Positions 28,043 through 43,615 of a stretch of 43,615 nucleotides of DNA are shown one piece after another. Made by a program: the position numbers and the translations under genes. The stretch lies in NCBI GenBank assembly GCA_945901155.1, contig CAMDKO010000012.1, forward strand, positions 1 through 43,615. Reading direction: 5' to 3'. Position 1 is the stretch's first letter, and the number at the start of each line of letters is the position of its first letter. The notes beneath the pieces are model-generated. The model did not search any database. It was given only the letters and a program-made list of their open reading frames with translations, and was not told the origin of the DNA. Origin of the DNA: Pedobacter schmidteae. GTDB lineage: Bacteria > Bacteroidota > Bacteroidia > Sphingobacteriales > Sphingobacteriaceae.

Positions 28043-29182
28043 TTAAATAGTTTTGGGTAAGGAAAGAAATTTACCAATTACACTAGCGGTCCTGATTAGA
28101 TTAGATGTGGTAAAACTCATGGCTGTTTGGAGGTCAGTAGGCTCATTGCCAATAGGCATAATAATATCAAAATACCTGTTCAGGTCTGCATTTTCATTGA
28201 GTGGCACGCTGCCTGCAATCCCAATAACCGTGATATTGCATTCTTTTGCAAGTTTAGCAACAGCAAAAGGGCCCTTTCCCTGTAAGGTCTGCTCATCGAG
28301 ACAACCTTCGCCGGTTATGAGAAGGTCTGCATTTTTCAATCTTTTTTCAAAGTCAGTAAGCTCCAGAAAATGTTCAGCTCCATTCACTAATCTGGCATTT
28401 AGAAAAGTGAACAATGAAGCCGCTATACCACCTGCAGCACCTCCATGAAGAATTTCATTCATATTGATTCCGGTAGATTGAAAAGCCAGATCCCTGAGGT
28501 TTGTTAAAGCCAGATCCAAAAGTTTTATATCTGAGGGGCTAGCTCCTTTCTGAGGACCAAAAATCACTGCTGAGCCCTGATCACCTAATAATAAATTATC
28601 AACATCGCATAAAACTGTAATCTGGCAATTAAAAATACGAGAGTCGAAACCCGACATATCAATTTGACGGAATCGGGATATATTGATGGGTAAAGCTGCT
28701 AACTCAGCTCCATCAGCATCTCGAAATTTGATACCAAGAGCACTTAAAATTCCTATCCCTCCATCAACAGTTGCCGAACCACCAAGTCCAATGATGATGC
28801 GTGATACGTTTCTGTCGAGTGCAAATCGAATCAATTCGCCGGTGCCAAAAGAAGAAGCCATTAATGGCAACATTTCATCACTGCGAACTAAGCGAATACC
28901 CGATGCATCCGCCATTTCAATTACAGCCGTTTTACCCTGATCAATAATACCTAAGGGAGCTTTGATCAATCTTCCTAATGGATCATGAACATCGTATTTA
29001 TGCCAGAGGCCACCACATTTTTCTACGATCAAATGGCCTGTACCATCACCTCCATCGGCAATTGGAAAGCACTCAGAAGTGCAGGTTGCACCACTCCGTT
29101 TTAAACCTTCCTGAATAGCTTCTGCAATCTCATTTGCCGAGAGGCTATGTTTAAAGGCATTAGGAGCAATCAGAATATGCAT
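28043..29182 (-). CDS. Glycerate 2-kinase (GarK/GlxK type)
   Basis: A 379-residue cytoplasmic kinase producing 2-phosphoglycerate from D-glycerate. MHILIAPNAFKHSLSANE, the glycine-rich FPIADGGDGTGHL, IIIGLGGSATVDGGIGIL and LLITGEGCLDEQTLQGKGP are classic for the type I glycerate kinase family. It lies 20 nt after the first RidA gene and is the final gene of the long leftward catabolic group. It would feed glycerate made by the hydroxypyruvate-reductase-like enzyme at 30.5-31.4 kb into glycolysis. Confidence 0.93.
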   Translation of the reverse strand: MHILIAPNAFKHSLSANEIAEAIQEGLKRSGATCTSECFPIADGGDGTGHLIVEKCGGLWHKYDVHDPLGRLIKAPLGIIDQGKTAVIEMADASGIRLVRSDEMLPLMASSFGTGELIRFALDRNVSRIIIGLGGSATVDGGIGILSALGIKFRDADGAELAALPINISRFRQIDMSGFDSRIFNCQITVLCDVDNLLLGDQGSAVIFGPQKGASPSDIKLLDLALTNLRDLAFQSTGINMNEILHGGAAGGIAASLFTFLNARLVNGAEHFLELTDFEKRLKNADLLITGEGCLDEQTLQGKGPFAVAKLAKECNITVIGIAGSVPLNENADLNRYFDIIMPIGNEPTDLQTAMSFTTSNLIRTASVIGKFLSLPKTI

Positions 29183-29202
29183 AATACAGATTGAACTGTG
29201 TT

Positions 29203-29763
29203 TTAATCTTCAAACTCAATGACCATTTCGATTTCTATGGCCCAATTTGCAGGAAGTGCTGACATACCCACTGCTGAGCGGGCATGTTTACCTTTTTCTC
29301 CAAATACTTGAACCATCAGATCAGAAAATGCATTCATAACCTTTGGCTGATCTTTAAATTCGGGAGTAGATTGAACCATCCCTAAAACCTTGACAATTCG
29401 CTTTACTTTATTCAAGTCGCCAAGTTCTGCCTTTAAGCTCGAAAGCAATGAAATTGCGGTTAATCGCGCAGCTTGCTGGCCCTGTTCAAGAGTCAGATCA
29501 TCTCCAACTCTTCCGGTAACTCTGGTACCGTCTGGTTTATCAGGGCCATGCCCGGCTGTAAAAATGAGATTACCAACTCGCACAATCTTTACATAGCTGG
29601 CTAATGGCGCACTTGGCTTTGCTAAAACGATGTTGAGGTCATTTAGGCGCTTATCAAAATCAATAACTTCAGCTTTTGAGCCCCCTTTTACTTGCGCTTT
29701 GGATGCATAATTGCAACCAAGTAAAGCAATTGCGATTATTGTTATTACGAAATACTTCTTCAT
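29203..29763 (-). CDS. RidA-family lipoprotein (copy 1)
   Basis: A 186-residue RidA/YjgF/UK114 protein that, unlike normal RidA (about 130 aa, cytoplasmic), has a lipoprotein signal (LLGC, Cys17) and should sit in the periplasm or outer membrane. The domain starts near residue 35; VGNLIFTAGHGPDKPDG, VKRIVKVLGMVQSTPEF and KHARSAVGMSALPANWAIEIEM follow. The Arg of HARSAV is the conserved substrate-binding residue of deaminating RidA. RidA hydrolyses enamine/imine products of PLP enzymes. A close copy lies upstream, separated by a terminator hairpin. Confidence 0.9.
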   Translation of the reverse strand: MKKYFVITIIAIALLGCNYASKAQVKGGSKAEVIDFDKRLNDLNIVLAKPSAPLASYVKIVRVGNLIFTAGHGPDKPDGTRVTGRVGDDLTLEQGQQAARLTAISLLSSLKAELGDLNKVKRIVKVLGMVQSTPEFKDQPKVMNAFSDLMVQVFGEKGKHARSAVGMSALPANWAIEIEMVIEFED

Positions 29764-29803
29764 AATTTTAATTCTGAGAAATTTAAATTAAATCAATTTC
29801 TGT

Positions 29804-29856
29804 AAAAAAATTAATGCTGATTTACTAAATCTTTAAGAATAGTAAATCAGCATTAA
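29804..29856 (-). terminator. Intrinsic terminator between the two RidA genes
   Basis: A perfect 17-bp inverted repeat (29811-29827 with 29840-29856, inner sequence GCTGATTTACTA) with a 12-nt loop. In the leftward transcript it is followed by seven U (29804-29810). It lies after the upstream RidA stop and would stop or attenuate operon transcription before RidA copy 1 and glycerate kinase. Confidence 0.88.
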
Positions 29857-29885
29857 GAATAGAAATGTTTGTATTTAGGAAGTTA

Positions 29886-30452
29886 TTAATCCTCTACTTC
29901 AACGATCATTTCAATTTCAATGGCAATATTACCTGGAAGTGCTGACATACCTACAGCTGAACGAGCATGCTTTCCTTTAACTCCAAAAATAGCAACCATC
30001 ATATCAGAAAATGCATTCATTACTTTAGGTTGATCCTTAAACTCTGGAGTAGACTGAACCATTCCTAAAACTTTAACTATACGCTTAACCTTGCTTAAGT
30101 CGCCGATCTCTGCTTTTAAGCTTGAAAGCAATGATACACCGGTTAAGCGAGCTGCTTCCTGACCTTGCTCTAAGGTAAGGTCATCACCTACTCTACCGGT
30201 TAGGGGTCCACCTTCTGCTCTGTCTGGTCCGTGACCTGAAGTATAAACCAAATTACCTACGCGTACTGTTTTTACAAAGTTTGCAGTTGGCGGCTTAGGA
30301 GTTGTTAGCTCTATATTCAATTCCTTTAAACGAGCTTCGATATTCACTGTATCAGCGGCAGCATCTGTTTCCTTTTTTGCAGCATCTTCCTGCTTTGGAT
30401 TACAACTTAATAAGGCAGCCGTGATAAGAAATAATAGGGAGTACTTTTTCAT
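29886..30452 (-). CDS. RidA-family lipoprotein (copy 2)
   Basis: A 188-residue exported RidA paralogue. The signal ends in LLSC (Cys17). A Lys/Asp/Glu/Ala linker (QEDAAKKETDAAADT) precedes the RidA domain, which is very similar to copy 1: VGNLVYTSGHGPDRAEGG, RIVKVLGMVQSTPEFKDQP and KHARSAVGMSALPGNIAIEIEM. The substrate-binding Arg and the later Glu are kept. The two are clearly a tandem duplication. It lies 19 nt downstream of the dehydrogenase gene and is followed by a strong terminator. Confidence 0.9.
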   Translation of the reverse strand: MKKYSLLFLITAALLSCNPKQEDAAKKETDAAADTVNIEARLKELNIELTTPKPPTANFVKTVRVGNLVYTSGHGPDRAEGGPLTGRVGDDLTLEQGQEAARLTGVSLLSSLKAEIGDLSKVKRIVKVLGMVQSTPEFKDQPKVMNAFSDMMVAIFGVKGKHARSAVGMSALPGNIAIEIEMIVEVED

Positions 30453-30471
30453 AATAATTTAATTTTAGGTT

Positions 30472-31431
30472 TTATTTATTTACAATATTAATAGGTTTTT
30501 GATTCAGGAATGAAGATAAATTATTTTCTGCAATTCCCATCAATCTACCTCTAGCTTCTTTCGTTGCCCACGCAATATGAGGGGTGATCATACAATTTTT
30601 TGCTTTAAAAAGAGGATTGTCGGCTGAAGGTGGTTCGACCGAAAGAACGTCAATTCCGGCACCCGCAATTACTCCTTCATTCAGGGCATCAGCCAGATCC
30701 TGATCTACCATGAGTGGCCCTCTGGAGGTATTCAAAAAGAAGGCTGACTTCTTCATTAACTTCAAAGTATCTTTATTGATCATACCCTGGGTATCAGGAA
30801 ATAAAGGGCAGTGAATACTGACCACATCTGAATGGGTAAGAAGCTTGTTCAATTCTACCCAACTGAAGTTTTTACGATGCGATTGATCAGACTGGCTGCG
30901 GGAATATGCCATTATATTCATTCCAAAGGCTGCAGCAACATCCGCAACTTTTTGTCCGATCATGCCAAAACCGATTATACCTATGGTTTTTCCTTCTAGT
31001 TCAACCAAGGGATAATTCCAATAACAAAAATCGGGCGAAGCTGCCCAGCCACCCTTAAAAACTGAATCACTATGACTTTGAACATGCTGACATAACTCAA
31101 GTAAAAGTGCAAATGTCATTTGCACGACTGATGCCGTACCATATCCTGGGATATTAGCCACTGCAATACCTCTTTTTTTGCTATAATCAACATCTACCAC
31201 ATTATAACCAGTTGCCAAAACACCAATGTATTTAAGATCAGGAAGCTGTTCGAGACTATGTTCTCTAAGCGGTGTCTTATTCGTAAATATGATCTCTGCA
31301 CCTCTGCATCGCTCCACAATCTGGCTCTCGGGAGTTCTGTCATGCACCTGCAGATCACCAAACTGCTTTAATCCATCCCATGTAAGATCTCCTGGATTTA
31401 AGGTATACCCATCTAATACAACTAACTTCAT
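30472..31431 (-). CDS. D-2-hydroxyacid dehydrogenase, hydroxypyruvate reductase/glycerate dehydrogenase-like
   Basis: A 319-residue cytoplasmic NAD(P)-dependent dehydrogenase. The cofactor motif is GFGMIG (154-159) and the catalytic triad is Arg237 (TSRGPLM), Glu266 (DVLSVEPPS) and His285 (TPHIAW). The sequence style (NKTPLREHSLEQLPDLKYIGVLATGYNVVD) fits the HprA glycerate dehydrogenase group, which reduces hydroxypyruvate or tartronate-type keto acids to D-glycerate. The nearby glycerate kinase supports this. A repeat tract lies in the 102-nt gap to the upstream isomerase gene. Confidence 0.88.
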   Translation of the reverse strand: MKLVVLDGYTLNPGDLTWDGLKQFGDLQVHDRTPESQIVERCRGAEIIFTNKTPLREHSLEQLPDLKYIGVLATGYNVVDVDYSKKRGIAVANIPGYGTASVVQMTFALLLELCQHVQSHSDSVFKGGWAASPDFCYWNYPLVELEGKTIGIIGFGMIGQKVADVAAAFGMNIMAYSRSQSDQSHRKNFSWVELNKLLTHSDVVSIHCPLFPDTQGMINKDTLKLMKKSAFFLNTSRGPLMVDQDLADALNEGVIAGAGIDVLSVEPPSADNPLFKAKNCMITPHIAWATKEARGRLMGIAENNLSSFLNQKPINIVNK

Positions 31432-31461
31432 GCTTATTCTAATTCTATAATTACTTTTTAC

Positions 31462-31531
31462 TTTCCCTTTTAGCTTTCTGCTTTCTGCTTTCTGCTTTTA
31501 GCTTTAAGCTTTAAGCTTTCTCCTTTAAGCT
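31462..31531 (-). repeat. Heptanucleotide tandem repeat, GCTTAAA/GCAGAAA type (10 units)
   Basis: Ten 7-base units read on the plus strand as tttccct, tttagct, ttctgct (three times), tttagct, ttaagct (twice), ttctcct, ttaagct. On the minus strand, which is the coding strand of the neighbouring genes, they become purine-rich AGCTTAA/AGCAGAA units of the same family as the repeats at 5.6 and 13.9 kb. The tract begins 2 nt after the isomerase stop codon, inside an otherwise compact operon. Confidence 0.88.
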
Positions 31532-31533
31532 CA

Positions 31534-32445
31534 CTAAACCCTTGCCCATGCCAGATTCAGCACACGCTTTGCATTTGCAATGACGATATCAGCATCTTCA
31601 TCTCCAAAAGGCTTGATCTCAAAACTTACCACCGGAGGGGTCTGAGTGTTCAGAAAGCCAATATCTAATAGTACCCTGAGATAATCTACAACTTCATCCA
31701 CATCATTTTCGCCATTTGGGAATCCGAAGCGGGGATGAACATCGCCATATGCTGGCATTTCAGGATCCTTCATCACACAATTTCCGATATGCGCATGAAC
31801 AATGTAATCCTTTACAGGTAGCAAAGATTCTTCAATCGTTTCATGGATCAAAGGAATATGACTTAAATCAACCATCAAGCCAAAATGATCGTGGCTTTTT
31901 CGGATCTCTTTGGCATAACGTAGTGCAAGGTCTGCCGGACCGATCAGGCTTCTTTTATCTACATCATAATCAAAAACCTCTAATGCAATTCTCATATCGC
32001 CTTTACTTTTTGCATATCGGCAAATTTCATTGGTAGAATTAACCAGAGCCTGAAAAGCTTCCTCCTTCCGGCTTTCTTCATAGTTACCACTCAAAAAAGC
32101 AAAACTGGTTGCGCCTATCTCATAAGCCTCGTCAATTCCTGCCATTAAATTTTGCAATGCCTTTTGGCGTTCCTCCTCAACCAGATGGTTAATGTTTAGA
32201 CCAGTAGTTAATAATCTTGGCTGAGCACCATAAGCGATGGTCATATGCGATGTTTCAAGCATTTTTTTTACTGCCATTCGTTGCTCAGGGTCTTTAATCG
32301 TTGTGATCTCAATGGCACTAAAATAGTCATCTACAGCAATCTTTCGAATGGTTTCAAGCACCGGACCTTCGCCTTTGATTGTTGCAGGAAAGGCCATAAA
32401 GTGGACCAGACCAACTCTCATGTATTTATAAAGTGATTCGTTCAT
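31534..32445 (-). CDS. Sugar phosphate isomerase/epimerase family TIM-barrel protein
   Basis: A 303-residue AP-endonuclease-2-like TIM barrel without signal peptide. Likely metal ligands sit in RIALEVFDYD (Glu), GLMVDLSHIP (Asp and His), IVHAHIGNC (His) and PVVSFEIKPFG (Glu). Such proteins isomerise or epimerise keto sugars and keto acids. The substrate is not evident. Because it lies directly after the KDPG-type aldolase gene (24 nt), I infer that it handles an intermediate of the same pathway. An alternative start is the ATG at 32421 (MRVGLVHFMAFP). Confidence 0.8.
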   Translation of the reverse strand: MNESLYKYMRVGLVHFMAFPATIKGEGPVLETIRKIAVDDYFSAIEITTIKDPEQRMAVKKMLETSHMTIAYGAQPRLLTTGLNINHLVEEERQKALQNLMAGIDEAYEIGATSFAFLSGNYEESRKEEAFQALVNSTNEICRYAKSKGDMRIALEVFDYDVDKRSLIGPADLALRYAKEIRKSHDHFGLMVDLSHIPLIHETIEESLLPVKDYIVHAHIGNCVMKDPEMPAYGDVHPRFGFPNGENDVDEVVDYLRVLLDIGFLNTQTPPVVSFEIKPFGDEDADIVIANAKRVLNLAWARV

Positions 32446-32469
32446 TTTTTGATAGACTATTCAAAATTA

Positions 32470-33141
32470 TTATTTCTTAAAACTTTCTCTGATTAAACTG
32501 ATCAGCTCAAGCGCTCTTTTAGACTCTGCGGCTAACTGATCATATCGCTTATTTTCAATCACGTCTTTGGTAATCATTTTACTGCCACCAACTGCGCAAA
32601 CTCCAACTTTAAACCAGCTTCTAAGATTTTCTTCGTTAAGTTCGATCCCGCCTGTAGGTAAAAAAACAATATCTTGAAAAAGTGCCTGCACTGCTTCAAT
32701 AAAGGATGGGCCTAAGGTATTTGCTGGGAAAAGCTTAACGATCTTTGCCCCGCAAGTTTCGGCTCGAATAATTTCGCTGGGAGTCATGCAACCAGGAACA
32801 CAAAGAAGGTCATTCTTATCAGACAATTCAATAACTGACTCCAAAATTCCCGGACAGACCAAAAACTCTGCGCCTTCATCCATATAAGTTTGGGCAGATT
32901 CTAAAGTTTTTATTGTACCAATACCTAATCGCATTCCGGGCAATTCCGCATCACATACTTTGCGCATCTCACGGAAATTCTTCAATGCTCGATCACCGCG
33001 ATCTGCATATTCAGTAGTCCTAATGCCCCCTGCATACATTGCCCTCATCAAATCAATACTCACTTCAGCATCAGCCGAGTAGTACAATGGCACAATTCCC
33101 TGTTCTTTTATAAGCCTTGAAAGCTCTGTTTTTAAATTCAT
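32470..33141 (-). CDS. KDPG/KHG-type aldolase
   Basis: A 223-residue class I aldolase of the Eda/DgaF family, which splits 2-keto-3-deoxy-6-phosphogluconate or related 2-keto-3-deoxy acids to pyruvate plus an aldehyde. The Schiff-base Lys is K136 in AKIVKLFPAN. The catalytic Glu is E44 in GIRTTEYADRG. LGIGTIKTLESAQTYMDEGAEFLVCPG and FLPTGGIELNEENL match the family. In other bacteria DgaF works with the DgaE ammonia-lyase; DgaE-like proteins are coded upstream in the same operon here. No edd gene is present. It lacks a signal peptide, so cleavage is cytoplasmic. Confidence 0.92.
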   Translation of the reverse strand: MNLKTELSRLIKEQGIVPLYYSADAEVSIDLMRAMYAGGIRTTEYADRGDRALKNFREMRKVCDAELPGMRLGIGTIKTLESAQTYMDEGAEFLVCPGILESVIELSDKNDLLCVPGCMTPSEIIRAETCGAKIVKLFPANTLGPSFIEAVQALFQDIVFLPTGGIELNEENLRSWFKVGVCAVGGSKMITKDVIENKRYDQLAAESKRALELISLIRESFKK

Positions 33142-33150
33142 CTTTTAAAA

Positions 33151-33579
33151 TTATAGCTTATAGCCTTGTCGAGCGAGCAGCTTCCACTTCCCTTGCTTTT
33201 TCTGCCAAACCATTATGTTACCAAATTTTAAATCCACTGGATTCCCTTTATTTTCAGCCTTAGCAGTTACAATATTTCTTACAATTGCATTTTTACCTGC
33301 CATTGTAATTTTCTGATCTAAGGGGTCAATACTTTTAAAAAATGTAGGCCCGTTCAATACTCCTGCAATAAATTCCTTCTGATTCTGTATTAAACCGGCA
33401 GAATGCCCATAGCTTAATTCGTCGCAAGTGAGGTCCTTTAAAGTAAGACTGTCTGTATTAATGATTGCATTATTAATAGCGATGACCAGCTTTGCGATTT
33501 GTGTTTCATTTTTGGATTGAGCCTGTGCATTCAGACTAATCACAGTAAGTAAAGTGAAGATTTTTAAGTACTTGAGCAT
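33151..33579 (-). CDS. Secreted NTF2-like/DUF4440 protein
   Basis: A 142-residue protein with a signal peptide (about 1-21, ending LNAQAQ). An NTF2-like fold follows: AIINTDSLTLKDLTCDELSYGHS, VRNIVTAKAENKGNPVDLKFGNIMVWQKKQGKWKLLARQGYKL. The ending with KWKLLARQ is typical of DUF4440/SnoaL-like families. The catalytic role is unknown. It is packed between the transporter and aldolase genes (18 and 9 nt), so it belongs to the catabolic unit. Confidence 0.82.
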   Translation of the reverse strand: MLKYLKIFTLLTVISLNAQAQSKNETQIAKLVIAINNAIINTDSLTLKDLTCDELSYGHSAGLIQNQKEFIAGVLNGPTFFKSIDPLDQKITMAGKNAIVRNIVTAKAENKGNPVDLKFGNIMVWQKKQGKWKLLARQGYKL

Positions 33580-33597
33580 GATTATTTATTTTAATTG

Positions 33598-34698
33598 TTA
33601 ATTAATTTCATCTTTTCCATCACTATCTGCAATGGGTTTTCCTTTCCAGTAAGAGGCCAGAATAGAACCTGTGATGTTCATCATTGGGCCATAGATCATT
33701 GGTGCAAGCCCAACGGTTCCAAGCTTACCCATTCCATAGGCTAGGCCTTTTGAAAGGCCTGCATTCTGCATCCCTACATTAATTGCAATAGTTCTGGAAT
33801 CTTTTTCACTCATTTTAAACAAGCGAGCAAACCAATATCCTAAGGTATAACCCATGAGGTTATGAATCAAAACTAATAGAATAAGAAGTGGCCCGACTTT
33901 TAAAAGACTTTCACGACCCACGGCGGTAACAATAATAATAATAAATGCGATACCAAACATGGATACAATGGGCATTACTGCATTGATCCACTTCATTTTA
34001 TCCTTCAGGAGTTCATTGACTACCATAGCTAGAGTAACCGGCAAAATGACCATTTTCATAATGTCCCACATCATATCAAGTACATTGATCTCAATGAATG
34101 AACCTCCTAATAACTTCATCAGTAGTGGTGTGAGAAAAGGAGCTAGTAAGGTTGCGATTGAAGTAAGTGTGATAGATAGGGCAAGGTTTGCCTTTGCCAG
34201 ATATGAAATAACATTGGCTGCAACAGCATTCGGTGCACATCCGATCAGAATCATACCTGCTGCAATCTCGGGAGTAAAACCACTGATGGTTGCCAATCCA
34301 AACCCAAGTAAAGGCATGATTATAAAATGGCTTGAAACCCCTACAAGAACCCCTTTAGGAGATTTAAATACTCCAATAAAATCTCTGTAGCTCATAGTTA
34401 TACCCATTCCAAACATGATTAGCTGAATGAGGGGAGTGATCAGGCCAGATAATTTATAGCCATTGATCTCAAGAAAATAGTGAGGAAAGATCATTGCTGT
34501 AGAAACTACACCGAAGATCATTACAGGATAGGCAAATCCTTTTAAAGCTGATGCACCCCGAATTCCGATGGCAATTGATAGGAGTGATGCGATCAAAAAT
34601 GGCTCGGCATCAGTAGATCTGTTGAGCAGATACAAGGTAAGTGCAGCGAGCATGCATGCAATGCCAATTACCAAAACGATTTTAAAAACAGGTTTCAT
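33598..34698 (-). CDS. Bile acid:sodium symporter (BASS) family transporter
   Basis: A 366-residue inner-membrane protein with about ten helices. Segments typical of the BASS/PanS family are LIMFGMGITMSYRDF, FIIMPLLGFGLA, ILIGCAPNAVAANVISYLAKANLALSI and AINVGMQNAGLSKGLAYG. Members carry organic anions with sodium; bacterial PanS takes up ketopantoate, and plant relatives move pyruvate or glycolate/glycerate. In this operon, importing a 2-keto acid formed outside the cytoplasm would fit, but that is inference. Confidence 0.9.
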   Translation of the reverse strand: MKPVFKIVLVIGIACMLAALTLYLLNRSTDAEPFLIASLLSIAIGIRGASALKGFAYPVMIFGVVSTAMIFPHYFLEINGYKLSGLITPLIQLIMFGMGITMSYRDFIGVFKSPKGVLVGVSSHFIIMPLLGFGLATISGFTPEIAAGMILIGCAPNAVAANVISYLAKANLALSITLTSIATLLAPFLTPLLMKLLGGSFIEINVLDMMWDIMKMVILPVTLAMVVNELLKDKMKWINAVMPIVSMFGIAFIIIIVTAVGRESLLKVGPLLILLVLIHNLMGYTLGYWFARLFKMSEKDSRTIAINVGMQNAGLSKGLAYGMGKLGTVGLAPMIYGPMMNITGSILASYWKGKPIADSDGKDEIN

Positions 34699-34720
34699 CC
34701 GATTTATTTAAGTAAAAATA

Positions 34721-35644
34721 TTACCAAGTTCTTTTTAACATAAACTGATCAAGCTGAGCGCGGCTGATCTTTTTTTCTTTTGGATTTTTTTCCAGCCACT
34801 TCATATATTCTACTCTGATATCTTCGCTCCATTGGGTATCAACCTGACCCGCTTTATACACTCCGTTTTTGATCATCTCATGGCCAAAACGATCTTTTGA
34901 AGCAATAAATTCTGCAGTAGCAATAACCTGTTCAGCCATATGAGCAGGAATAAATACTACCCCAGCACGGCCAGCAATCACTAGATCTCCAGGTAAAACA
35001 ATGGCTTGTCCAATTGTAACCGGAGTATTCAAACCCATCAACACAACACCTTGCAAAAATTGAGGTGCAAAATCTCTCACAAATGCATTAAATCCCTTGA
35101 TCTCGGCCAATCCATCCACATCGCGGGCAAATCCATCAAATATTACTCCATTCCCCGAGTTTTTATAGATTACATTCCCAAGATTATCACCCATCAGTGA
35201 CCCTACTCTACCTTCATTATCAGCAACATACACATCGCCTTTGCTAAGCATATTGATAGGCCAGTGCAAATGCCTGCCTTGCTTGCCTTCTGCGGCAGCA
35301 CGATCTACAATATTCTTCTCCACATCAGGACGAATAGGCATATAAAAAGCCGTTAAAGCCCTTCCAATAACTTTTTCATCTTCATGCAATATTTTCCAGT
35401 TTCGCTCATATTGATACAGATAGCCTTCATTATTTAATATTTGCCAGGCCTCTTCAATCCCAATTGATTTTGCACGGTTCAACAACTCGTCAGGAATCCG
35501 TGGCCGACCATCCTCAAAACGTTCACCTTTCCAGGCAGAAGTCAAAAAGATCAGTTCCTCTTTAGGAATAGCTTGAGCAAACAAAGATTTGAAGGGTAAT
35601 ATCAGCAAGCAAAAGGAAAGCAATAACTGGAAACTATATCTCAT
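34721..35644 (-). CDS. Secreted RraA-like protein
   Basis: A 307-residue RraA-superfamily protein, longer than the usual 160-230 aa, with a signal peptide (about 1-24, LFAQA). The core shows GDNLGNVIYKNSGNGVIFDGFARDVDGL, keeping the Arg-Asp pair (R174, D175) used for pyruvate/metal binding in the aldolase-type members. The usual acidic GDxxxxDxxGVVVVP block reads GDLVIAGRAGVVFIP, so the Asp is replaced. Relatives are 4-hydroxy-4-methyl-2-oxoglutarate aldolases/oxaloacetate decarboxylases or RNase E inhibitors. Export rules out RNase control. A role on a keto acid in the periplasm is possible. Confidence 0.82.
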   Translation of the reverse strand: MRYSFQLLLSFCLLILPFKSLFAQAIPKEELIFLTSAWKGERFEDGRPRIPDELLNRAKSIGIEEAWQILNNEGYLYQYERNWKILHEDEKVIGRALTAFYMPIRPDVEKNIVDRAAAEGKQGRHLHWPINMLSKGDVYVADNEGRVGSLMGDNLGNVIYKNSGNGVIFDGFARDVDGLAEIKGFNAFVRDFAPQFLQGVVLMGLNTPVTIGQAIVLPGDLVIAGRAGVVFIPAHMAEQVIATAEFIASKDRFGHEMIKNGVYKAGQVDTQWSEDIRVEYMKWLEKNPKEKKISRAQLDQFMLKRTW

Positions 35645-36665: not shown

Positions 36666-36700
36666 GTTAAAATGGTTTAATATTTATTAACTATTTATGA

Positions 36701-38362
36701 TTAGGTAGCTAAAGGCTGACCTCCCGGAATCATGACTTTTTGACGCGGAAGCTTAGTTTTATTTCGCTTTGCTGTAAATTTTGCTGTTAGGTATTCACCC
36801 ATATGGATATCTCCAGATATGGTATCACCACTCACTTTTCCGGAGAAAAGGTAAATAATAATATTCCCAACGATAGGAATCGTACTCTTAATCTTCACTT
36901 CATCTCCATCAATTGTACCCACCATGTTTTTAGTATCAAAATCTCCCTTATGAGTACCCTGAATCCAGTTTCCATCCTGTTCAATCGTAAACGAATGCTG
37001 GCTGGCACTTAATGCATATTGAACTTCAACATCCCAGCGTCCGCTTAGGTTAGTTGTGGGCGTTTTCATCTCGGGCTTAGGGCTGCGCTTCTTTGATAAT
37101 ACTTCGAATAACCGATCGGCAACAATCTTTTCTTCACCCGCTTGCATATGCCCGGGCGTAATTTGTATGGAGCTTGTACCATCAGGTTCATCCCGATTTC
37201 CAAGGGCTATTCTTGGCTTATTTCTTCCCACTTCTTCTGCAATTTCATATCCTGTAACGTAAAATTTTTCAGGATCCCAGATAATATGAAGTACCGGATA
37301 CTTATTGTTTAAATTGATGGGTTCAACAACCTTGGTACTTATGCCATTGATCTGATTAACTTTCTTTGATATGACCTCAAGCCAGCTAAGCCATCTTTTC
37401 CACTCCCCATCATGATCCCGTTCTAACCAGTCTTCAACTGCTACAACCATTCCTACTATTTCATCTCGATCTAGTTTATTGTCGCGGCCCGGGCCATGAT
37501 GCGGAGCACTTGCCTGCCATGCGGCTAATAAAATATTTTTATTTCCGAGCATTAATCCTGCCGACTGCGGGCCGCGGATAGTTTTACCCCCGCTGTATGC
37601 TACAATATCTGCTCCTCTCTTTAAATGATAGGGAGGAATGGTCAGACTCTCTGCTGCAGCATCCATCAAAATTGGAATATTTTTTGGTTTAGCTATTGAG
37701 GCAATCACCTCCAAAGATAAGGGCTGACCTGTATCAGAAGCAGCCCCCGGAGTGCCAGATGTGAGGTAGATCATTGCCGTTTTTGAATTGATGGCCTTTT
37801 CTAATTCTTCAGGAGTAGATACAGTGATTATTTTCACACCAATATTCCGGACCGCATGATCATAATGCTGGCGGGAATATCTTGGAATGATAACCTCCGT
37901 TTTTTCAAATCCGGTAAGATCAGGAATGCGAATGAGTCTTTCTGGGCTTCCGCCAGTAACGCAAGCTGCCGTGATATGTTTTACGCCGGCTGCACATCCT
38001 GAAGAAACCATTCCCCATTCTGATTTTGTAAGTTCTGCAAGACGCTTTCCAACAGCTTCAGCAAGCTCATCAAGCTGTACAAAATTTGTGCTGGCCGCTT
38101 CTAATGCAAGTTTGACTTTTGGCCTTTTGATTGACCCTCCTATAATGGTATAAGAGCCCCTACAATTGATGATGGGCTCAACACCCATTGCTCTGTATAT
38201 ATTTGTTTCTGATAAAAAGGAATTCAATGTAGTTAGCGATTCTGAACTTTGCGCTAAAGATTTATCTGCTGTAACAGTTCCTGCCAAAACCGAGTTGCTT
38301 GAAAGAACACTTCCAACAACCGGTAACATGGCTAATCCCTTAATTACATTTCTGCGTTTCAT
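36701..38362 (-). CDS. Exported SelA/DgaE-like PLP enzyme with C-terminal beta domain (copy A)
   Basis: A 553-residue PLP enzyme of the SelA / D-glucosaminate-6-phosphate ammonia-lyase type. A twin-arginine-like leader (KRRNVIKGLAMLPVVGS) precedes the catalytic domain (about 55-425). Asp234 (ILMDAAAE) should pair with the pyridine nitrogen and Lys260 (AYSGGKTIRGPQ) forms the Schiff base. Residues about 438-533 (NLSGRWDVEVQY to KFTAKRNK) form an added lipocalin-like beta domain, ahead of a conserved tail ending PGGQPLAT. Tat export fits a cofactor-loaded folded enzyme. Predicted chemistry is ammonia elimination from a 2-amino-3-hydroxy acid; the substrate is unknown. Confidence 0.85.
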   Translation of the reverse strand: MKRRNVIKGLAMLPVVGSVLSSNSVLAGTVTADKSLAQSSESLTTLNSFLSETNIYRAMGVEPIINCRGSYTIIGGSIKRPKVKLALEAASTNFVQLDELAEAVGKRLAELTKSEWGMVSSGCAAGVKHITAACVTGGSPERLIRIPDLTGFEKTEVIIPRYSRQHYDHAVRNIGVKIITVSTPEELEKAINSKTAMIYLTSGTPGAASDTGQPLSLEVIASIAKPKNIPILMDAAAESLTIPPYHLKRGADIVAYSGGKTIRGPQSAGLMLGNKNILLAAWQASAPHHGPGRDNKLDRDEIVGMVVAVEDWLERDHDGEWKRWLSWLEVISKKVNQINGISTKVVEPINLNNKYPVLHIIWDPEKFYVTGYEIAEEVGRNKPRIALGNRDEPDGTSSIQITPGHMQAGEEKIVADRLFEVLSKKRSPKPEMKTPTTNLSGRWDVEVQYALSASQHSFTIEQDGNWIQGTHKGDFDTKNMVGTIDGDEVKIKSTIPIVGNIIIYLFSGKVSGDTISGDIHMGEYLTAKFTAKRNKTKLPRQKVMIPGGQPLAT

Positions 38363-38399
38363 GCTATTATAGTGTATTTCAATTTAAAAATTCCTAAAT

Positions 38400-39668
38400 C
38401 TATTTTGTGTAAGGCGTGGCTGCCAGACCATTCAGATCCCAAATAATTCGACCAGCTCTTACTGTCAATTCGGCTTCAAACTTTTGATTACCTTCTATCC
38501 GGTTACCACCCGAATCTACATATCCATATTTACCGTTTATAATACTTAAAACAGCAATATCAGCTACAGAACCAACACTCAAATTACCAAGATCTTCTCT
38601 TTTAATTGATTTGGCAGGTTTCCAGCTTCCGCTGGCAATGATATCAGGAATGGTCATGCCTATTGTCAGGTATTTTGACATCACATTCAGCATATTCTTC
38701 ATGCCTGCATTCATGCTTGTTCTATGTTCATCTGTACCAAAAGAATTTGGAAGAAGCCCCTGTTTCAATGCAGGTATTGCCTGGTTAAACCAAAATCCAA
38801 CACCTCCATGACCTACATCAAACAAAACCCCTCTATTTTGTGCCTCCAGAACAAAGGCCCTTAGTTTACCCTGTTCATCTACAATAGGCATCCGTTCTGA
38901 TACGTTTTCAAAAGAGTGGGTAATGATATCACCAGAACGCATTTTTTTTAATTGATCTTCTAGAGAATACTCAGGCATATGACATTCTACAAAAAGAGGC
39001 CTATCCGTAATTTGGGCAGCTTCAGAAGCCTTATTAAAAGGGATCCAGCTTTTACCTTTATAATGCCCTATGCGGGTACCTGCAATAAAATCAGGATATT
39101 TTTTGATGGCATCCACAGTCATTTGAACATCCAATGTATTTAAATCGGGTTCAATTGCAGAGCCTGCGCTAAAACCAGTCTCGAAAATATTGATAAAAGC
39201 TAAAACTCGGGTTAAAGAAGGATCAACCACCTTTGCCTTAAAATCAGGGAAGGTACGCCAACCGGTAGTACCGGCATCAACTACCGTGGTAATACCAGAT
39301 CGAGGTGCAAAGGCATCTGGTAACTGGCTTGATTGACCATCAGCAAAGCCCGGTTTACTTCCTGCATATACGTGAGTATGGATATTGATCAATCCCGGAG
39401 ATACTATCATTCCGCTAACATCCAATACTTTTTTTGCACTTGAAGATGGGATCTCAGCTGCAATACGATAAATCTTACCATCTTTTACAGCAACATCCAT
39501 TTTTGAATCAATACTATTTTTGGGATCCAATAGTCGCCCTCCTTTTAACAACAGATCGATTTCCTGGGCTTGTATCAACCGAGGCAATATTAAAAATGCA
39601 AATAATGCGATTAAGCGTATTTTAAACACACAAATTTTTGAATCGGAATTACTTTTATTAGTTGTCAT
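38400..39668 (-). CDS. Exported amidohydrolase/deacetylase, COG3964 type (copy A)
   Basis: A 422-residue metallohydrolase with a Sec signal (about 14-35, LIQAQ). Motifs are HTHVYAG (97-103), ITTVVDAGTTGWRTFPDF, ECH (His230), GDIITHSF (His251), DVGHGG and FGTDEH. This matches the amidohydrolase/deacetylase family (EF_0837/Atu3266 type), members of which remove acetyl groups from hydroxy or amino acids. At the position where the neighbouring copy has Lys (GIK), the likely carbamylated bridging residue, this copy has Arg199 (GTRIGHY), so metal binding or activity may differ. It lies 37 nt downstream of PLP copy A. Confidence 0.87.
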   Translation of the reverse strand: MTTNKSNSDSKICVFKIRLIALFAFLILPRLIQAQEIDLLLKGGRLLDPKNSIDSKMDVAVKDGKIYRIAAEIPSSSAKKVLDVSGMIVSPGLINIHTHVYAGSKPGFADGQSSQLPDAFAPRSGITTVVDAGTTGWRTFPDFKAKVVDPSLTRVLAFINIFETGFSAGSAIEPDLNTLDVQMTVDAIKKYPDFIAGTRIGHYKGKSWIPFNKASEAAQITDRPLFVECHMPEYSLEDQLKKMRSGDIITHSFENVSERMPIVDEQGKLRAFVLEAQNRGVLFDVGHGGVGFWFNQAIPALKQGLLPNSFGTDEHRTSMNAGMKNMLNVMSKYLTIGMTIPDIIASGSWKPAKSIKREDLGNLSVGSVADIAVLSIINGKYGYVDSGGNRIEGNQKFEAELTVRAGRIIWDLNGLAATPYTK

Positions 39669-39692
39669 TATCCTTAAAATTATTTTACCTTT

Positions 39693-41012
39693 TTATTTTT
39701 CTATCGTCCATTTCTGTCCGCTTAAGCCATTCAGATCCCATACCACTGTACCTGCTCGAATCGTTAATTCTGCTTCTAGCTTTTTAGTTCCGGCTACGGC
39801 TATTTTGCGCACGTCAGTGTAGCCAAATTCTCCTTCTCTAATATTAAAAACTGCCAGATCAGCCTCGGCGCCAACACTCAAATGACCAAGGTCTAGGCGT
39901 TTAATTACCTGTGCTGGATTCCAGGTAGACCTTAAAACAACATCCTGAAAACTCATTCCCATAGCTAGAAATTTAGACATCACATTTGCCATATCCTTCA
40001 TTCCGCTATTCATACTCAGATCATGCAAGTCTGAACTGATCACATTCGGATAAAAGCCCTGCTGAAATGCAGGAACGGCCTGTGCCCATGAAAATGCACC
40101 GCCACCGTGTCCAACATCAAAAATAACGCCCCGTTTTTGGGCTTCAAATACAAAAGGTTTTACTTTTCTTGTTTTTTCATCCACAATTGATTCGCGTCCA
40201 CCGGTAGTCTTTGAAATTGCATGTTCGGAGAAGGTATGGGTAAAAATATCTCCCGGACGAAGGTGTTTTAAAAATAAAGACTCAATAGAATTAGCCGGAT
40301 TATGCTCGCCAAAATCAACCATAATTGGCACATTTGCAAGCTTACCTGACTCAACAGCCTTATCTACAGAGGTGAATTCACCCCAATAATGAGCAGATTT
40401 AATACCAACAAGAATAGTTGGATAAAGTCTGTTGATCATATGAGCATTCATGACAGGATTCATGTCATTCACATCTTGTTCCTGAAAACGGCCAATCATT
40501 CCATTGCCAATTACGTTTAGGAAAGCCAGAATTCTTGTTTGCGATTTATCAATGGTTTGTTCTTTAAACAATGGGAAATTCCTCCAGCCAGAAGATCCGG
40601 CATCTACAACAGTAGTAACACCTGTTCTGAAAGAAAATGCATCAGCTTGCTGACTGCGTGAAGAATTACCAACCGATGTACTGTATTTATCGGTACCCTG
40701 AAAAACATGAACATGCATATCGATTATCCCGGGAGTGATATAAAATCCAGTTACATCAATGATTTTTGCAGCGGATCCTATAGGAATATCTTTAGCTACA
40801 CGAGCTATCTTTCCATTTACAATTCCCACATCCATTTTGGAATCGATCTTGTTTTTGGGATCAATAAGATGTGCGCCTTTTAACAGAATATCAATTTCCT
40901 GAGCATAGCTAAATTGACAAATTATCAATAGAACAAAACCTATTGAGAACCTGCAATAAACCTTTTTATAAATAGCAATTTTATTGAAAAAAAAACTCAT
41001 GTTAACTGTCAT
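39693..41012 (-). CDS. Exported amidohydrolase/deacetylase, COG3964 type (copy B)
   Basis: A 439-residue paralogue of the next gene with an N-terminal signal (about 20-37, CQFSYAQ). Motifs are MHVHVFQG (99-106), GVTTVVDAGSSGWRNF, the probable carbamylated Lys205 in LVGIKSAHYWG, GDIFTHTF (His259), DVGHGGGAFSW and ISSDLHDLSMNSGMKDM. This copy keeps the full family pattern. The last line, RAGTVVWDLNGLSG, also ends the truncated third copy at the window edge. An ATG at 41000 (MSFFFNK) is an alternative start. It would release an acyl group from the pathway substrate before the PLP step (inference). Confidence 0.88.
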   Translation of the reverse strand: MTVNMSFFFNKIAIYKKVYCRFSIGFVLLIICQFSYAQEIDILLKGAHLIDPKNKIDSKMDVGIVNGKIARVAKDIPIGSAAKIIDVTGFYITPGIIDMHVHVFQGTDKYSTSVGNSSRSQQADAFSFRTGVTTVVDAGSSGWRNFPLFKEQTIDKSQTRILAFLNVIGNGMIGRFQEQDVNDMNPVMNAHMINRLYPTILVGIKSAHYWGEFTSVDKAVESGKLANVPIMVDFGEHNPANSIESLFLKHLRPGDIFTHTFSEHAISKTTGGRESIVDEKTRKVKPFVFEAQKRGVIFDVGHGGGAFSWAQAVPAFQQGFYPNVISSDLHDLSMNSGMKDMANVMSKFLAMGMSFQDVVLRSTWNPAQVIKRLDLGHLSVGAEADLAVFNIREGEFGYTDVRKIAVAGTKKLEAELTIRAGTVVWDLNGLSGQKWTIEK

Positions 41013-41029
41013 TAATATGGGTACCCGTT

Positions 41030-41767
41030 TTACTGAAAATTTAATATCCCGAAAAATTGAGGTAAATGAAATTGTGGCTTAGGATTTTTAACTTCATTCC
41101 ATGTGATATAATGCTTATTGGAATTTATTTCTGCGATCTTATAAAAATTAGCTCTCCAAGAAACACCGGCCTTTGGGCGAACCACATTGGTATATTTTTC
41201 TAGCATTTCTAAAGGTATTTTGAAAGACATGGTCCAGGTAACACGTTCGGTTATTTCTGGATCAACCACCTTTGGCAATGAGGCTGCGATCTCTATTTTT
41301 TGAATATCCTCAACTGTTGGTTTTCCTTTCTTATGATGAAACAAAGGGGTTCCTCCACAATTGATCTCCAGGTTAAAGTAATTGATTGGATTATTTGCTT
41401 CAGGCGAGAAAAAGAATTCAACTGCTGAATCTTCCCACACTTTACCGTTGATTTTTTGGGTTATGCTGCGAACGTAGCGATCTTTTACTCTGTAGATCAC
41501 GTAAATAAAATTATCATCATATACCATTTTTGCCTCTGCCTGAGGTTTAAATTTGGGCATTTCGCCCATATAATTTTGAATTTTAACTGATTCTACACTC
41601 TTCCAGGAAGCATCACTCCATTTATCGTTCACATTCACTCCCTGAACGGCTCTTTTTACAGAGTAGGCTGAAAGTTCGGCATTAGTTGATGAATTCTGTG
41701 AATAAACCATTGGTATAAAAACTGTTAACAGAAGAATAACAGAGGTAATCATTCTTAATTTTTTCAT
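41030..41767 (-). CDS. Secreted CBM9-like carbohydrate-binding protein
   Basis: A 245-residue secreted protein with a signal peptide (about 1-24, VYSQ). One CBM9-like beta-sandwich domain follows: DKWSDASWKSVESVKIQNYMG, AKMVYDDNFIYVIYRVKD, VWEDSAVEFFFSP and YFNLEINCGGTPLFHH. Such stand-alone CBM9-like proteins are common in Bacteroidota and are thought to bind sugars at the cell surface. Its place in the operon (17 nt before deacetylase copy B) is the best hint that the substrate has a sugar-like part. Confidence 0.83.
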   Translation of the reverse strand: MKKLRMITSVILLLTVFIPMVYSQNSSTNAELSAYSVKRAVQGVNVNDKWSDASWKSVESVKIQNYMGEMPKFKPQAEAKMVYDDNFIYVIYRVKDRYVRSITQKINGKVWEDSAVEFFFSPEANNPINYFNLEINCGGTPLFHHKKGKPTVEDIQKIEIAASLPKVVDPEITERVTWTMSFKIPLEMLEKYTNVVRPKAGVSWRANFYKIAEINSNKHYITWNEVKNPKPQFHLPQFFGILNFQ

Positions 41768-41863
41768 TAAATTATTGGTAGTTTTTTGATTAATAATTCT
41801 AAAAATTTATGAAACTTTCTAAACAAAATATCCTGCTGGAGCTATCAACATCAGGAAAATTAA

Positions 41864-43507
41864 TTAAGTAGCCAAAGGTGGACCACCAGGAATCTGAATT
41901 CTTTTCCGTGCAGGTTTTGCAGAATTTCGGATAGCAGTAAATTTGGCCGTTCTGTACTCACCCAAGTGAATATCTCCAGACATGGTATCACCATTTACTG
42001 TGCCCTGGAACAAGTAGTTAATATTGTCAGCAATGATTCTTATTGTACTCTCAAATTTGATTTGACCACCATCAATAGTACCAGATAGGTTTCTAGTGTC
42101 AAAATCTGCCTTATGTGTACCAGAAAACCAGTTACCATCCTGAACTATAGTAAAGCTATGCTGACTTGTACTACTAAAGAATTTTATACTCACATCCCAA
42201 GTACCATTCAAATTAGCTGCAGGAGCTGACATTTCAGGCTTAGCTTGACGATTTTTGGAAAGCACTTCATACAAGCGCTCGGCAATGATTTTTTCTTCTC
42301 CAGCCTGCATTTGTCCGGTTGTAATATTTACAGAAGTTATTCCATCGCTTTCGTCTCTTGCAGCTAGAGCAATTCTTGGTTTATTCCGTCCCAGTTCTTC
42401 GGCTATTTCAAAACCAGTTACATGCAATTTTGCAGGATCCCAGCTTACTTTCAATACCGGCGACTTATTTGACAAACCGGTTGGTTCTGTGATTGTGGCC
42501 TTAATTCCATCAATACCTGATATTTTCTTTGAAATAGTATCTAACCAGGATAACCATTTTTTCCAATCGCCGGCATGATCGCGTTTTATCCAATCTTCAA
42601 CTGCCGCCATCATACCAATCATTTCTTCACGCCCTACTTTATTATCACGTCCGGGACCATGGTGCGGAGAACTTGCCTGCCATGCCGACATTAAAATAGA
42701 CTTATCACCGAGCATGAGTCCGGCGCACTGCGGGCCACAAATTGCCTTTCCACCACTATATGCCACCAAGGTAGCACCTCTTTTAAAATGAACTGGAGGA
42801 ATGGTTAGGTTTTGAGCGGCAACATCAATTAAGACTGGAATATTTTTTGGCTTTGCAATTGCAGAGATAGCCTCTAATGAAAGTGGCTGTCCAGCTTCAG
42901 ATTGCGAGCCTGCAGTTAGATAGATCATTGCAGTTTTCGAATTTATTGCATTCTCAAGTTCTTCGGGGGTACTTACATGAACAATGGTTACACCTATATT
43001 TCGTATACCATGATCATAGGCATTGCGGGAATACCGTGGGATGATCACTTCAGTTTTATCAAAACCGGTCAAATCAGGAATACGGATCAGCTTTTCAGGG
43101 TTACCCCCTGTAACGCAAGCCGCAGTAATATGTTTAAGCCCAGCGGCACATCCGGCAGAAACCATTCCCCATTCTGCACCGGTAAGATCTGCAAGCCGCT
43201 GTCCGATAGCATCAGCCAATTCATCATATTGCACAAAGTTATGAGCTGCCGCTTCCATTGCCTCACGAACAGCTGGCCGTTCAATTGAACCCCCAATTAT
43301 TGTGTATGTACCCATGCAATTAATAACGGGTTCTACACCAATCCTGCGGAAGATATTTGTATCAGCCATAAATGATGCTTCGGTCACAGGTAATATATTG
43401 ACAGAGTTTGCATGTGTAATTGGTGAAGCAACAACAGACTTTTGAGAAATAATACTCCCCGCTACTGGAAGCAAGGCCAGGCCTTTAATTACATTTCTGC
43501 GTTTCAT
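41864..43507 (-). CDS. Exported SelA/DgaE-like PLP enzyme with C-terminal beta domain (copy B)
   Basis: A 547-residue paralogue of copy A along its full length, with the same twin-arginine leader KRRNVIKGLALLPVAGS. Catalytic residues are Asp228 (VLIDVAAQ) and Lys254 (AYSGGKAICGPQ). Where copy A reads IRGPQ this copy reads ICGPQ, changing a residue next to the PLP lysine. PHHGPGRDNK and GFEIAEELGRNKPRIAL are shared. The C-terminal beta domain (NLNGTWDVSIKFFSSTSQHS) and the tail PGGPPLAT are retained. A 96-nt gap separates it from the CBM9-like gene, and the third deacetylase copy lies 32 nt upstream. Confidence 0.85.
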   Translation of the reverse strand: MKRRNVIKGLALLPVAGSIISQKSVVASPITHANSVNILPVTEASFMADTNIFRRIGVEPVINCMGTYTIIGGSIERPAVREAMEAAAHNFVQYDELADAIGQRLADLTGAEWGMVSAGCAAGLKHITAACVTGGNPEKLIRIPDLTGFDKTEVIIPRYSRNAYDHGIRNIGVTIVHVSTPEELENAINSKTAMIYLTAGSQSEAGQPLSLEAISAIAKPKNIPVLIDVAAQNLTIPPVHFKRGATLVAYSGGKAICGPQCAGLMLGDKSILMSAWQASSPHHGPGRDNKVGREEMIGMMAAVEDWIKRDHAGDWKKWLSWLDTISKKISGIDGIKATITEPTGLSNKSPVLKVSWDPAKLHVTGFEIAEELGRNKPRIALAARDESDGITSVNITTGQMQAGEEKIIAERLYEVLSKNRQAKPEMSAPAANLNGTWDVSIKFFSSTSQHSFTIVQDGNWFSGTHKADFDTRNLSGTIDGGQIKFESTIRIIADNINYLFQGTVNGDTMSGDIHLGEYRTAKFTAIRNSAKPARKRIQIPGGPPLAT

Positions 43508-43539
43508 ATTATATATATTTTAGATTTTTTGTTTTTTAA

Positions 43540-43615
43540 TTACTGAGTTGTGGCCATACTTTTGGCGGATAGCCCGTTCAGATCCCAAATTATTTTTCCA
43601 GCCCTCACCGTTAGC
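43540..43615 (-). CDS. Amidohydrolase/deacetylase C-terminus (copy C), cut by window edge
   Basis: The last 24 codons of a leftward gene read LTVRAGKIIWDLNGLSAKS and end MATTQ before a TAA. This matches the C-terminal line of copies A and B (ELTVRAGRIIWDLNGLA; ELTIRAGTVVWDLNGLSG), so a third deacetylase copy precedes PLP copy B. The rest lies outside the window. Confidence 0.85.
   Translation of the reverse strand, partial: LTVRAGKIIWDLNGLSAKSMATTQ

Follow-up and report, generated by a model that had tools for sequence, protein, structure and literature searches.

Amidohydrolases of the cog3964 family act on N-acetyl-D-amino acids and acetyl-mandelate, and in Gram-positive bacteria a gene of the EF_0837 type adjoins one resembling DgaE, a pyridoxal phosphate (PLP) enzyme that has its fold in common with SelA, which acts on seryl-tRNA. 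The substrates of DgaE (PMC9529869) and of a further PLP enzyme, Cap15 (PMC7497351), are 2-amino-3-hydroxy acids according to the excerpts of the two papers. In the ong pathway of Pseudoalteromonas prydzensis, N-acetylglucosaminic acid (GlcNAc1A) from oxidised chitin undergoes deacylation and PLP-dependent deamination in the cytoplasm, and a RidA protein is needed for growth (PMC9537276, in excerpt). Here, we describe a gene run on contig C12 (CAMDKO010000012.1) of Pedobacter schmidteae, the Daejeonella-type genome of which comprises 2.74 Mb at 93% completeness; the entire contig of 43,615 nt is the window that was analysed. The run extends from 28043 to 43507, is compact and leftward with 15 genes, all on the minus strand, and 14 intergenic gaps of 9-122 bp, and comparison with relatives shows that it forms the downstream end of an operon that also encodes SusC, SusD and an M19 dipeptidase of the twin-arginine translocation (Tat) type. 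With moderate confidence, we propose that this operon would serve nutrient uptake by N-deacylation and ammonia elimination, outside the cytoplasm, of unphosphorylated 2-amino-3-hydroxy acids, probably N-acyl amino-sugar acids.

In the scheme that we infer, as regards every reaction, every substrate and actual export, the SusC/SusD pair would carry the substrate over the outer membrane and the exported M19 dipeptidase and/or a lactonase-like amidohydrolase, AmdH2, would release or open it. Exported cog3964 amidohydrolases of the DeAc1 type would take off the N-acyl group, Tat-exported PLP enzymes of the SelA/DgaE fold would eliminate the 3-hydroxyl, giving off an enamine, and a RidA lipoprotein would hydrolyse the enamine to a 2-keto-3-deoxy acid and ammonia. 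A BASS carrier would import this acid, unless an RraA-like protein cleaves it outside first. The imported acid would be cleaved by an aldolase of the 2-keto-3-deoxy-6-phosphogluconate/2-keto-4-hydroxyglutarate (KDPG/KHG) type, and its C3 part would be converted via glycerate to phosphoglycerate by a dehydrogenase and a kinase. The gene set, its order and conservation, the signal motifs, the residue changes and the co-occurrence on which this scheme draws are read directly from the DNA. An earlier note on this DNA had likewise placed deacylation and deamination outside the cytoplasm, and its interpretation is partly supported.

Gene order and predicted export

From its upstream end the run reads PLP1, a CBM9-like gene, DeAc1, DeAc2, PLP2, AmdH2, RraA and BASS, and continues with DUF4440, the KDPG/KHG-type aldolase, a TIM barrel, a D-2-hydroxyacid dehydrogenase (HADH), RidA2, RidA1 and a glycerate kinase (GlyKin). 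All gene classes named in the earlier note were confirmed at their positions on the minus strand; its list was correct as given but omitted AmdH2 (35712-36665) and DUF4440 (33151-33579). Since the contig stops 108 bp upstream of PLP1, the operon is truncated in the window.

The two PLP enzymes, PLP1 (41864-43507) and PLP2 (36701-38362), and AmdH2 have a Tat-like KRRxxxIKG N-terminus (start MKRRxxIKG; MKRRNVIKG in PLP1), with an RRxxxK motif and a hydrophobic stretch. The pattern RR...K occurs within the first 25 residues of 89 of the 115 complete PLP homologs, and TatC is encoded in the genome. Lipoboxes are present on RidA1 (29203-29763; LLGC) and RidA2 (29886-30452; LLSC). A hydrophobic N-terminus followed by a small residue and Gln was scored in DeAc1 (39693-41012), in the CBM9-like protein (41030-41767; PF16011, 7e-38; signal end VYSQ) and in the DUF4440 protein (PF14534, 1.3e-12; signal end AQAQ), and was recognised by eye in DeAc2 (38400-39668) and RraA (34721-35644); Gln after a small residue is the Q-rule of Bacteroidetes, as excerpted from PMC5837995. 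Nearly all complete DeAc homologs (102 of 106) have a hydrophobic N-terminal stretch, and the small residue before Gln precedes the domain in 92 of the 92 scorable ones (14 were not scorable). No N-terminal hydrophobic segment was found in GlyKin, HADH, the TIM protein or the aldolase. The signals are distributed as the earlier note had said, with the deacylase-like, PLP and RidA proteins bearing them and the aldolase, the dehydrogenase and the kinase lacking them, and judging from these motifs we predict export of the PLP enzymes, the amidohydrolases and the RidA proteins.

Features that the operon would share with ong, as far as the excerpts of PMC9537276 describe it, are TonB-dependent uptake, N-deacetylation, PLP-dependent deamination without phosphorylation, a RidA protein and a 2-keto-3-deoxy acid, all of which except the uptake genes are predictions here. 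However, the deacylase and the lyase of ong are cytoplasmic and belong to other families (D-aminoacylase type and D-amino-acid-deaminase-like), whereas both enzyme classes bear signals here. Moreover, import precedes deamination in ong, which has a 2-keto-3-deoxygluconate (KDG) kinase where the window has a glycerate kinase, and which draws on a source opened by a lytic polysaccharide monooxygenase (LPMO), of which none was found here. Among the titles and abstract openings listed for open-licence papers, none showed an exported version of such a pathway, which is weak evidence of absence. The earlier statement that no pathway with this topology has been described is uncontradicted there, but has to be qualified in view of ong as a close cytoplasmic analogue.

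For the later steps, the BASS protein (33598-34698; PF01758, 1.6e-36) is a putative inner-membrane importer resembling PanS (NF047939, 2.3e-62, below cut-off), and the aldolase (32470-33141), which lacks a signal, is a class I enzyme according to PRK07114 (2.8e-59, below cut-off) and solved KDPG/KHG aldolases. HADH (30472-31431; PF02826, 8.4e-59) matches 5tx7 at 1.2e-107 and the glycerate dehydrogenase 6p2i at 8.6e-46, and GlyKin (28043-29182) reaches 399.1 bits with TIGR00045 (cut-off 168.45). The exported RraA-like protein (PF03737, 2.3e-17), a candidate pyruvate aldolase, retains the DGxxRD motif as DGFARD, which we take to contain the Arg-Asp catalytic pair of class II pyruvate aldolases, and aldol cleavage by RraA may occur outside the cytoplasm. 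The earlier claim that import is limited to the keto acid, with splitting thereafter, is not established, given the export signal and the Arg-Asp motif of RraA.

The named loci nearest to PLP1 are found in Daejeonella and Sphingobacteriaceae genomes, with up to 98% identity. The order of the run is kept in eight further genomes of the genus (L020, L021, L022, L023 (= G009), L024 (= G019), L025 (= G004), L036 (= G007) and L039), which bears out the co-conservation of the gene set; L021 and L022 have a single DeAc gene between CBM9 and PLP2 where the window has two, and L039 is a disturbed assembly with AmdH2/RraA duplicated. Of the Daejeonella isolates, H1SJ63 has the operon (L025/L121) and JGW-45 its reduced form (L027). 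The contigs of several relatives, including L020 and L022, stop before GlyKin, and all four runs readable to their downstream end (L118 in G019, L120 in G009, L121 in G004 and L123 in G007) end with HADH-RidA2-RidA1-GlyKin, adjoined by a PBP4 gene, and their gaps do not exceed 133 bp. On the upstream side, L119 (G019) encodes an extracytoplasmic-function (ECF) sigma factor, FecR, SusC, SusD and a Tat-type M19 dipeptidase (identified by Pfam), followed by a third PLP gene, PLP3, and further amidohydrolases. The layout of L020 is the same, including the M19 gene (Pfam), its genes in common with the window being 92-99% identical, and the relatives have, besides the third PLP gene, two to four extra amidohydrolases upstream. 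Contig C74 of the genome under study (G000) carries apparent SusC, SusD and M19 genes, judged by position and N-terminus only, together with PLP3 and three amidohydrolases, and would by analogy be the missing upstream half of the window operon.

A promoter scan gave no excess (47 against 49.4 expected), a terminator scan a modest one (20 against 13.4 expected, sd 3.6); the limits of the operon were not taken from these scans. Outside the operon, a PQQ-type dehydrogenase with a cytochrome c domain is encoded at 5693-7849 on the minus strand, possibly a periplasmic aldose oxidase.

PLP enzymes and RidA proteins

PLP1 and PLP2, which are 67% identical, match DgaE-type models below their cut-offs (TIGR01437 at 1.8e-42 and NF047797 at 2.9e-41 for PLP1, TIGR01437 at 8.3e-42 for PLP2); the scores of the PLP enzymes with such models are 141.7 and 121.0 bits, and where the cut-off is 600, a score of 142 bits fails it. 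An AF2 model of PLP1 (pLDDT 88.3, pTM 0.83) returned in Foldseek Cap15 (8t7j, 1.1e-26), DGL (7lc0, 4.9e-26) and SelA (1.3e-19), with a TM-score of 0.86 by target against 7lc0. Every one of the 15 paralogs in G000 retains the Schiff-base Lys, as do 101 of 101 other homologs. By contrast, DgaE residues H162 and H163 are absent in all 15 paralogs, and His occurs at position 162 in none and at position 163 in one of the 101 others. None of the 15 paralogs has an Arg at any of the columns of the DgaE phosphate arginines R301, R332 and R346, where the alignment has only about 25% identity, and an unphosphorylated substrate would therefore be expected. With regard to numbering, Lys-217 of PMC9529869 is residue 213 in chain 7lc0, whereas for His and Arg the paper and the chain have the same numbering.

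According to the excerpts of PMC9529869, the DgaE variant H163A is nearly intact in catalysis and releases the enamine, and the authors tie His163 to avoiding enamine damage, with RidA being mentioned. Because the His proton donor of DgaE is missing from the window enzymes, we propose that these release the enamine. The designation as DgaE-like thus holds for the fold, which is that of DgaE, SelA and Cap15, but the enzymes are not DgaE, as both His and the three Arg are absent and the score is far below cut-off. Apart from fold and Schiff-base Lys, they would have a 2-amino-3-hydroxy acid substrate and an aldolase partner in common with DgaE/DGL (7lc0), whereas they differ in lacking the phosphate-binding Arg cluster and His162/163, in their Tat signal, in a C-terminal barrel and in their RidA and amidohydrolase partners. 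This extra eight-stranded barrel (41867-42226, minus strand, in PLP1) is conserved in the long-form paralogs and is calycin/fatty-acid-binding-protein-like according to weak fold matches; no family was matched by it in a Pfam search.

The best fold match, Cap15, is an oxidative decarboxylase and not an eliminase, and the PLP enzymes could accordingly be exported, O2-dependent decarboxylases that convert beta-hydroxy-alpha-amino acids to carboxamides, with RidA acting on an imine side product. The reaction is described in PMC7497351, and the excerpted source gives Cap15 a beta-hydroxy-alpha-amino acid substrate, as would be the case here, but a role in antibiotic biosynthesis and oxidative decarboxylation. 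However, the sequence comparison ranks DGL over Cap15 (109.1 versus 89.1 bits), and the aldolase, the dehydrogenase and the kinase of the operon suggest a keto acid rather than an amide, so that we regard this explanation as very improbable. We know of no export signal or deacylase partner of Cap15.

The proposed release of an enamine directs attention to the RidA proteins. In the genome, 15 matches to PF01042 correspond to 13 genes, as one open reading frame (ORF) accounts for three of the matches. Eight of the 13 genes have a PLP gene at a distance of no more than 8 kb (binomial 3.4e-8). Leaving out the two of the window, the count is 6 of 11 (p 5.2e-6), and within 5 kb it is 6 of 13 (p 7.3e-6). 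Ten of the 13 have export signals by eye, two (on C15 and C50) are apparently cytoplasmic, and for C4:61296 no start could be seen. An Arg, corresponding to Arg105 of E. coli TdcF, is essential for RidA activity (PMC4433059, in excerpt). The window proteins match PF14588 (RidA1, 3.3e-15; RidA2, 1.5e-13) and PF01042 (RidA2, 2.7e-13), and both have the conserved Arg; their scores with TIGR00004 (36.3 and 31.9 bits) do not reach its cut-off of 106.25. The essential Arg is kept in 12 of 12 aligned genes, which are all of the 13 except that on C123, in a column that, from the alignment with a canonical copy, we take to be that of Arg105; a further fragment, on C140, stops short of the column. Assignment to the inactive Rid4-7 type was ruled out, as the Arg column is kept. 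The Glu partner of the Arg is replaced by Gln in C120 and in both C153 copies. On C123 (L128, 2721-3914) a single ORF with a signal-like N-terminus comprises three RidA-type domains, and on C153 (L127, 446-4034) two Tat-type RidA genes adjoin a neutral-ceramidase-like protein and an esterase, with no PLP gene seen on this short contig.

Co-occurrence and sister loci

Among 60 genomes (own included), strong PLP matches (E <= 5.8e-69) are present in 15, namely 14 of the genus and G034, and strong DeAc matches (E <= 3.1e-134) are present in exactly the same 15; the other 45 reach no better than 9.9e-8 and 1.6e-10, respectively. The raw tallies at E <= 0.001 are 22 of 60 for PLP and 54 of 60 for DeAc, the latter mostly other amidohydrolases. 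In a survey of 395 genomes of the phylum (own included; E <= 1e-40, with scoring of only the first three or four candidates in each genome), PLP was found in 8 and DeAc in 12, with all of the 8 lying within the 12 and the other four forming one genus (hypergeometric 3.6e-14, with no correction for relatedness). Counted by locus, the two are paired less strictly: 43 of 61 Bacteroidota PLP loci have a DeAc gene within the fetched stretch, and 18 each have RraA and BASS, where the stretches vary in length and the same operon is counted more than once. Genome-wide, at least 15 of 27 DeAc matches lie near PLP genes; with ten unplaced, this lower bound is not used as evidence.

The sister locus on C60 combines a glucose/sorbosone dehydrogenase (GSDH) with cytochrome c, a PLP enzyme, an SMP-30-type lactonase, a Tat-type RidA, RraA, BASS and DUF4440, and has no DeAc gene. 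A similar layout is seen in L032, L033, L035 and L038 and also in L034, where no RidA ORF was called; in these loci, neighbours other than PLP, RraA, BASS and DUF4440 were assigned solely from their length, position and N-terminus. On C70 (L130, 2265-6348), RraA, a PQQ/cytochrome c dehydrogenase and an Amidohydro_2 gene adjoin, and on C89 (L131, 614-9040) four tandem mandelate-racemase/enolase-type proteins and a UxuA mannonate-dehydratase-like protein are followed by an exported RraA. The enolase-type and UxuA-like proteins of C89 have RR-type N-termini by eye, and dehydration of sugar acids may also be exported there. From their gene content, the loci on C60, C70 and C89 point to sugars. Proximity to PLP genes is weak for GSDH (3 of 11 within 5 kb, one of them below the Pfam cut-off, p 0.009 uncorrected), for RraA (1 of 4 at 5 kb, 2 of 4 at 8 kb) and for BASS (2 of 5 and 3 of 5), the window's own copies of the last two being included.

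Other PLP loci have different neighbours. On C93 (L016, 1409-8915), PLP and amidohydrolase genes lie with a Gfo/Idh/MocA oxidoreductase, a 3-keto-disaccharide hydrolase and a TIM barrel. Six Dyadobacter loci (L049, L050, L051, L053, L054 and L056) carry PLP homologs of 61-62% identity and no DeAc-type gene in the fetched stretch. In Acidobacteriota (L064, L067, L072, L073, L077, L084 and others), PLP homologs that are 60-65% identical to PLP1 mostly lack amidohydrolase neighbours; they are closer to PLP1 than many G000 paralogs, and gene transfer is possible.

Amidohydrolases, substrates and wider meaning

DeAc1 and DeAc2 pass the cut-off of NF006689 (371) with 425.9 and 389.2 bits, respectively. 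With EF_0837/AHA_3915 (TIGR03583, cog3964; structures 2ogj and 8je0) they have in common the family, HxH, the strand-6 His, the strand-8 Asp and a DgaE-like gene as neighbour, but they differ in their predicted export and in the strand-5 metal His, which is Asp in DeAc1 and Glu in DeAc2; DeAc1 also keeps the bridging Lys, which is Arg in DeAc2. The bridging Lys is replaced in two of 15 G000 copies (DeAc2 and its C74 homolog) and in 17 of 92 others (16 Arg, one Cys), and the second His of HxH is missing from one G000 copy, that on C140 (L013:3461). The term deacetylases used in the earlier note agrees with membership in cog3964/EF_0837 and is weakened by these replacements; DeAc1 is a candidate N-deacylase, and the activity of DeAc2 is doubtful. 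For AmdH2 (PF04909, 2.4e-35), the nearest solved structure is 2ffi (2.3e-12), a putative 2-pyrone-4,6-dicarboxylate hydrolase.

Several findings weigh against the proposed pathway. Asp or Glu takes the place of the strand-5 metal His of 2ogj and 8je0 in all 15 G000 copies and in 92 of 92 others, and because this His is absent and DeAc2 also lacks the bridging Lys, N-deacylation is a putative activity. The TIM protein (31534-32445; xylose-isomerase-like, PF01261, 4.7e-17; without signal) was considered as a hydroxypyruvate isomerase, for which no NCBIfam model matched at E <= 0.001; its nearest NCBIfam models, 5-keto-L-gluconate epimerase and psicose epimerase, are far below cut-off (IolO model, 2.8e-11). 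Of the claimed route to 2-phosphoglycerate, the glycerate kinase was found, whereas the isomerase lacks such a match. Orthologs that might reveal the substrate of the TIM protein were sought in the 395 genomes at E <= 1e-30 and found in the own genome alone; they are present in relatives of the genus. A KDG kinase was not found in the operon, and an origin of the substrate from chitin oxidised by an LPMO was rejected, as the 93% complete genome has no AA10 LPMO (PF03067). The C70 Amidohydro_2 protein is only distantly related to AmdH2 (31% over 42 residues), the locus of G003 is reduced to PLP1-CBM9-HADH-GlyKin, 18 of the 61 Bacteroidota PLP loci, including the six of Dyadobacter and those of the C60 type, have no DeAc gene in the fetched stretch, and just 2 of 17 Acidobacteriota PLP loci have one. 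Finally, the M19 dipeptidase suggests peptides over sugars.

The Tat-type M19 dipeptidase in the operon of the relatives would fit degradation of N-acyl-D-amino acids or D-amino-acid peptides, such as peptidoglycan or humic-type remains, rather than of sugars. M19 and the amidohydrolase would then free D-serine, D-threonine or D-hydroxyaspartate-like residues, on which the PLP enzymes would act as exported D-hydroxyamino-acid dehydratases, feeding simple keto acids to BASS. A gamma-glutamyltranspeptidase and an M81 gene in the PLP cluster on C4 fit amino acids or peptides, as do the cog3964 substrates named at the outset, and the ong deacylase and ammonia-lyase are closest to D-amino-acid enzymes in the excerpts of PMC9537276. 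This explanation, which we consider rather unlikely, leaves the aldolase, the lactonase-like AmdH2, the glycerate kinase and the aldose dehydrogenase/gluconolactonase of C60 unaccounted for. A mercapturate (cysteine-conjugate) pathway, suggested by M19, gamma-glutamyltranspeptidase and PLP beta-lyase chemistry, was set aside, since it does not explain the aldolase and the glycerate kinase.

The PLP enzymes themselves have expanded: PLP1 has 15 matches in G000, which fall into two length classes and differ in their neighbours, many of them lying next to genes for exported RidA proteins and cog3964-type amidohydrolases; among 20 genomes of the genus (own included), 14 have 6-18 PLP matches, some of them fragments at contig edges, and the remaining six a single weak match or none. 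These paralogs could represent a lineage-specific expansion acting on many unrelated substrates, with the cytosolic neighbours as a separate sugar-acid module and no single pathway. The TIM protein, confined to the genus among the genomes searched, the reduced G003 locus and the PLP loci without DeAc would agree with this; however, the order of the set is common to eight other genomes, no gap exceeds 133 bp in the four that could be followed to the downstream end, and the second locus on C60 repeats PLP, RidA, RraA, BASS and DUF4440. We therefore judge an expansion without a common pathway to be improbable.

Going beyond N-deacylation and ammonia elimination by the window operon, we tentatively suggest, at less confidence than for this operon itself, that Daejeonella and some other Bacteroidota might have a general extracytoplasmic metabolism of sugar acids and amino-sugar acids, which would comprise aldose oxidation, lactone opening, N-deacylation, PLP-dependent elimination, RidA hydrolysis and even RraA cleavage, with about 15 paralogous PLP enzymes and import of keto acids only. 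Were this so, an entire pathway of PLP-dependent elimination would have moved out of the cytoplasm together with RidA proteins of its own that clear the imines, keeping reactive enamines away from the cytoplasmic PLP enzymes and releasing ammonia outside. This would be a natural case of enamine-producing chemistry separated from cytoplasmic PLP enzymes, would account for the lipoprotein or Tat signals on members of the RidA family, and would give a testable role to proteins annotated as 'SelA-like' and 'EF_0837-like'. The expansion of the PLP enzymes, with up to 18 matches per genome including some fragments, suggests a source of nitrogen and carbon that is overlooked by standard annotation of sugar pathways.

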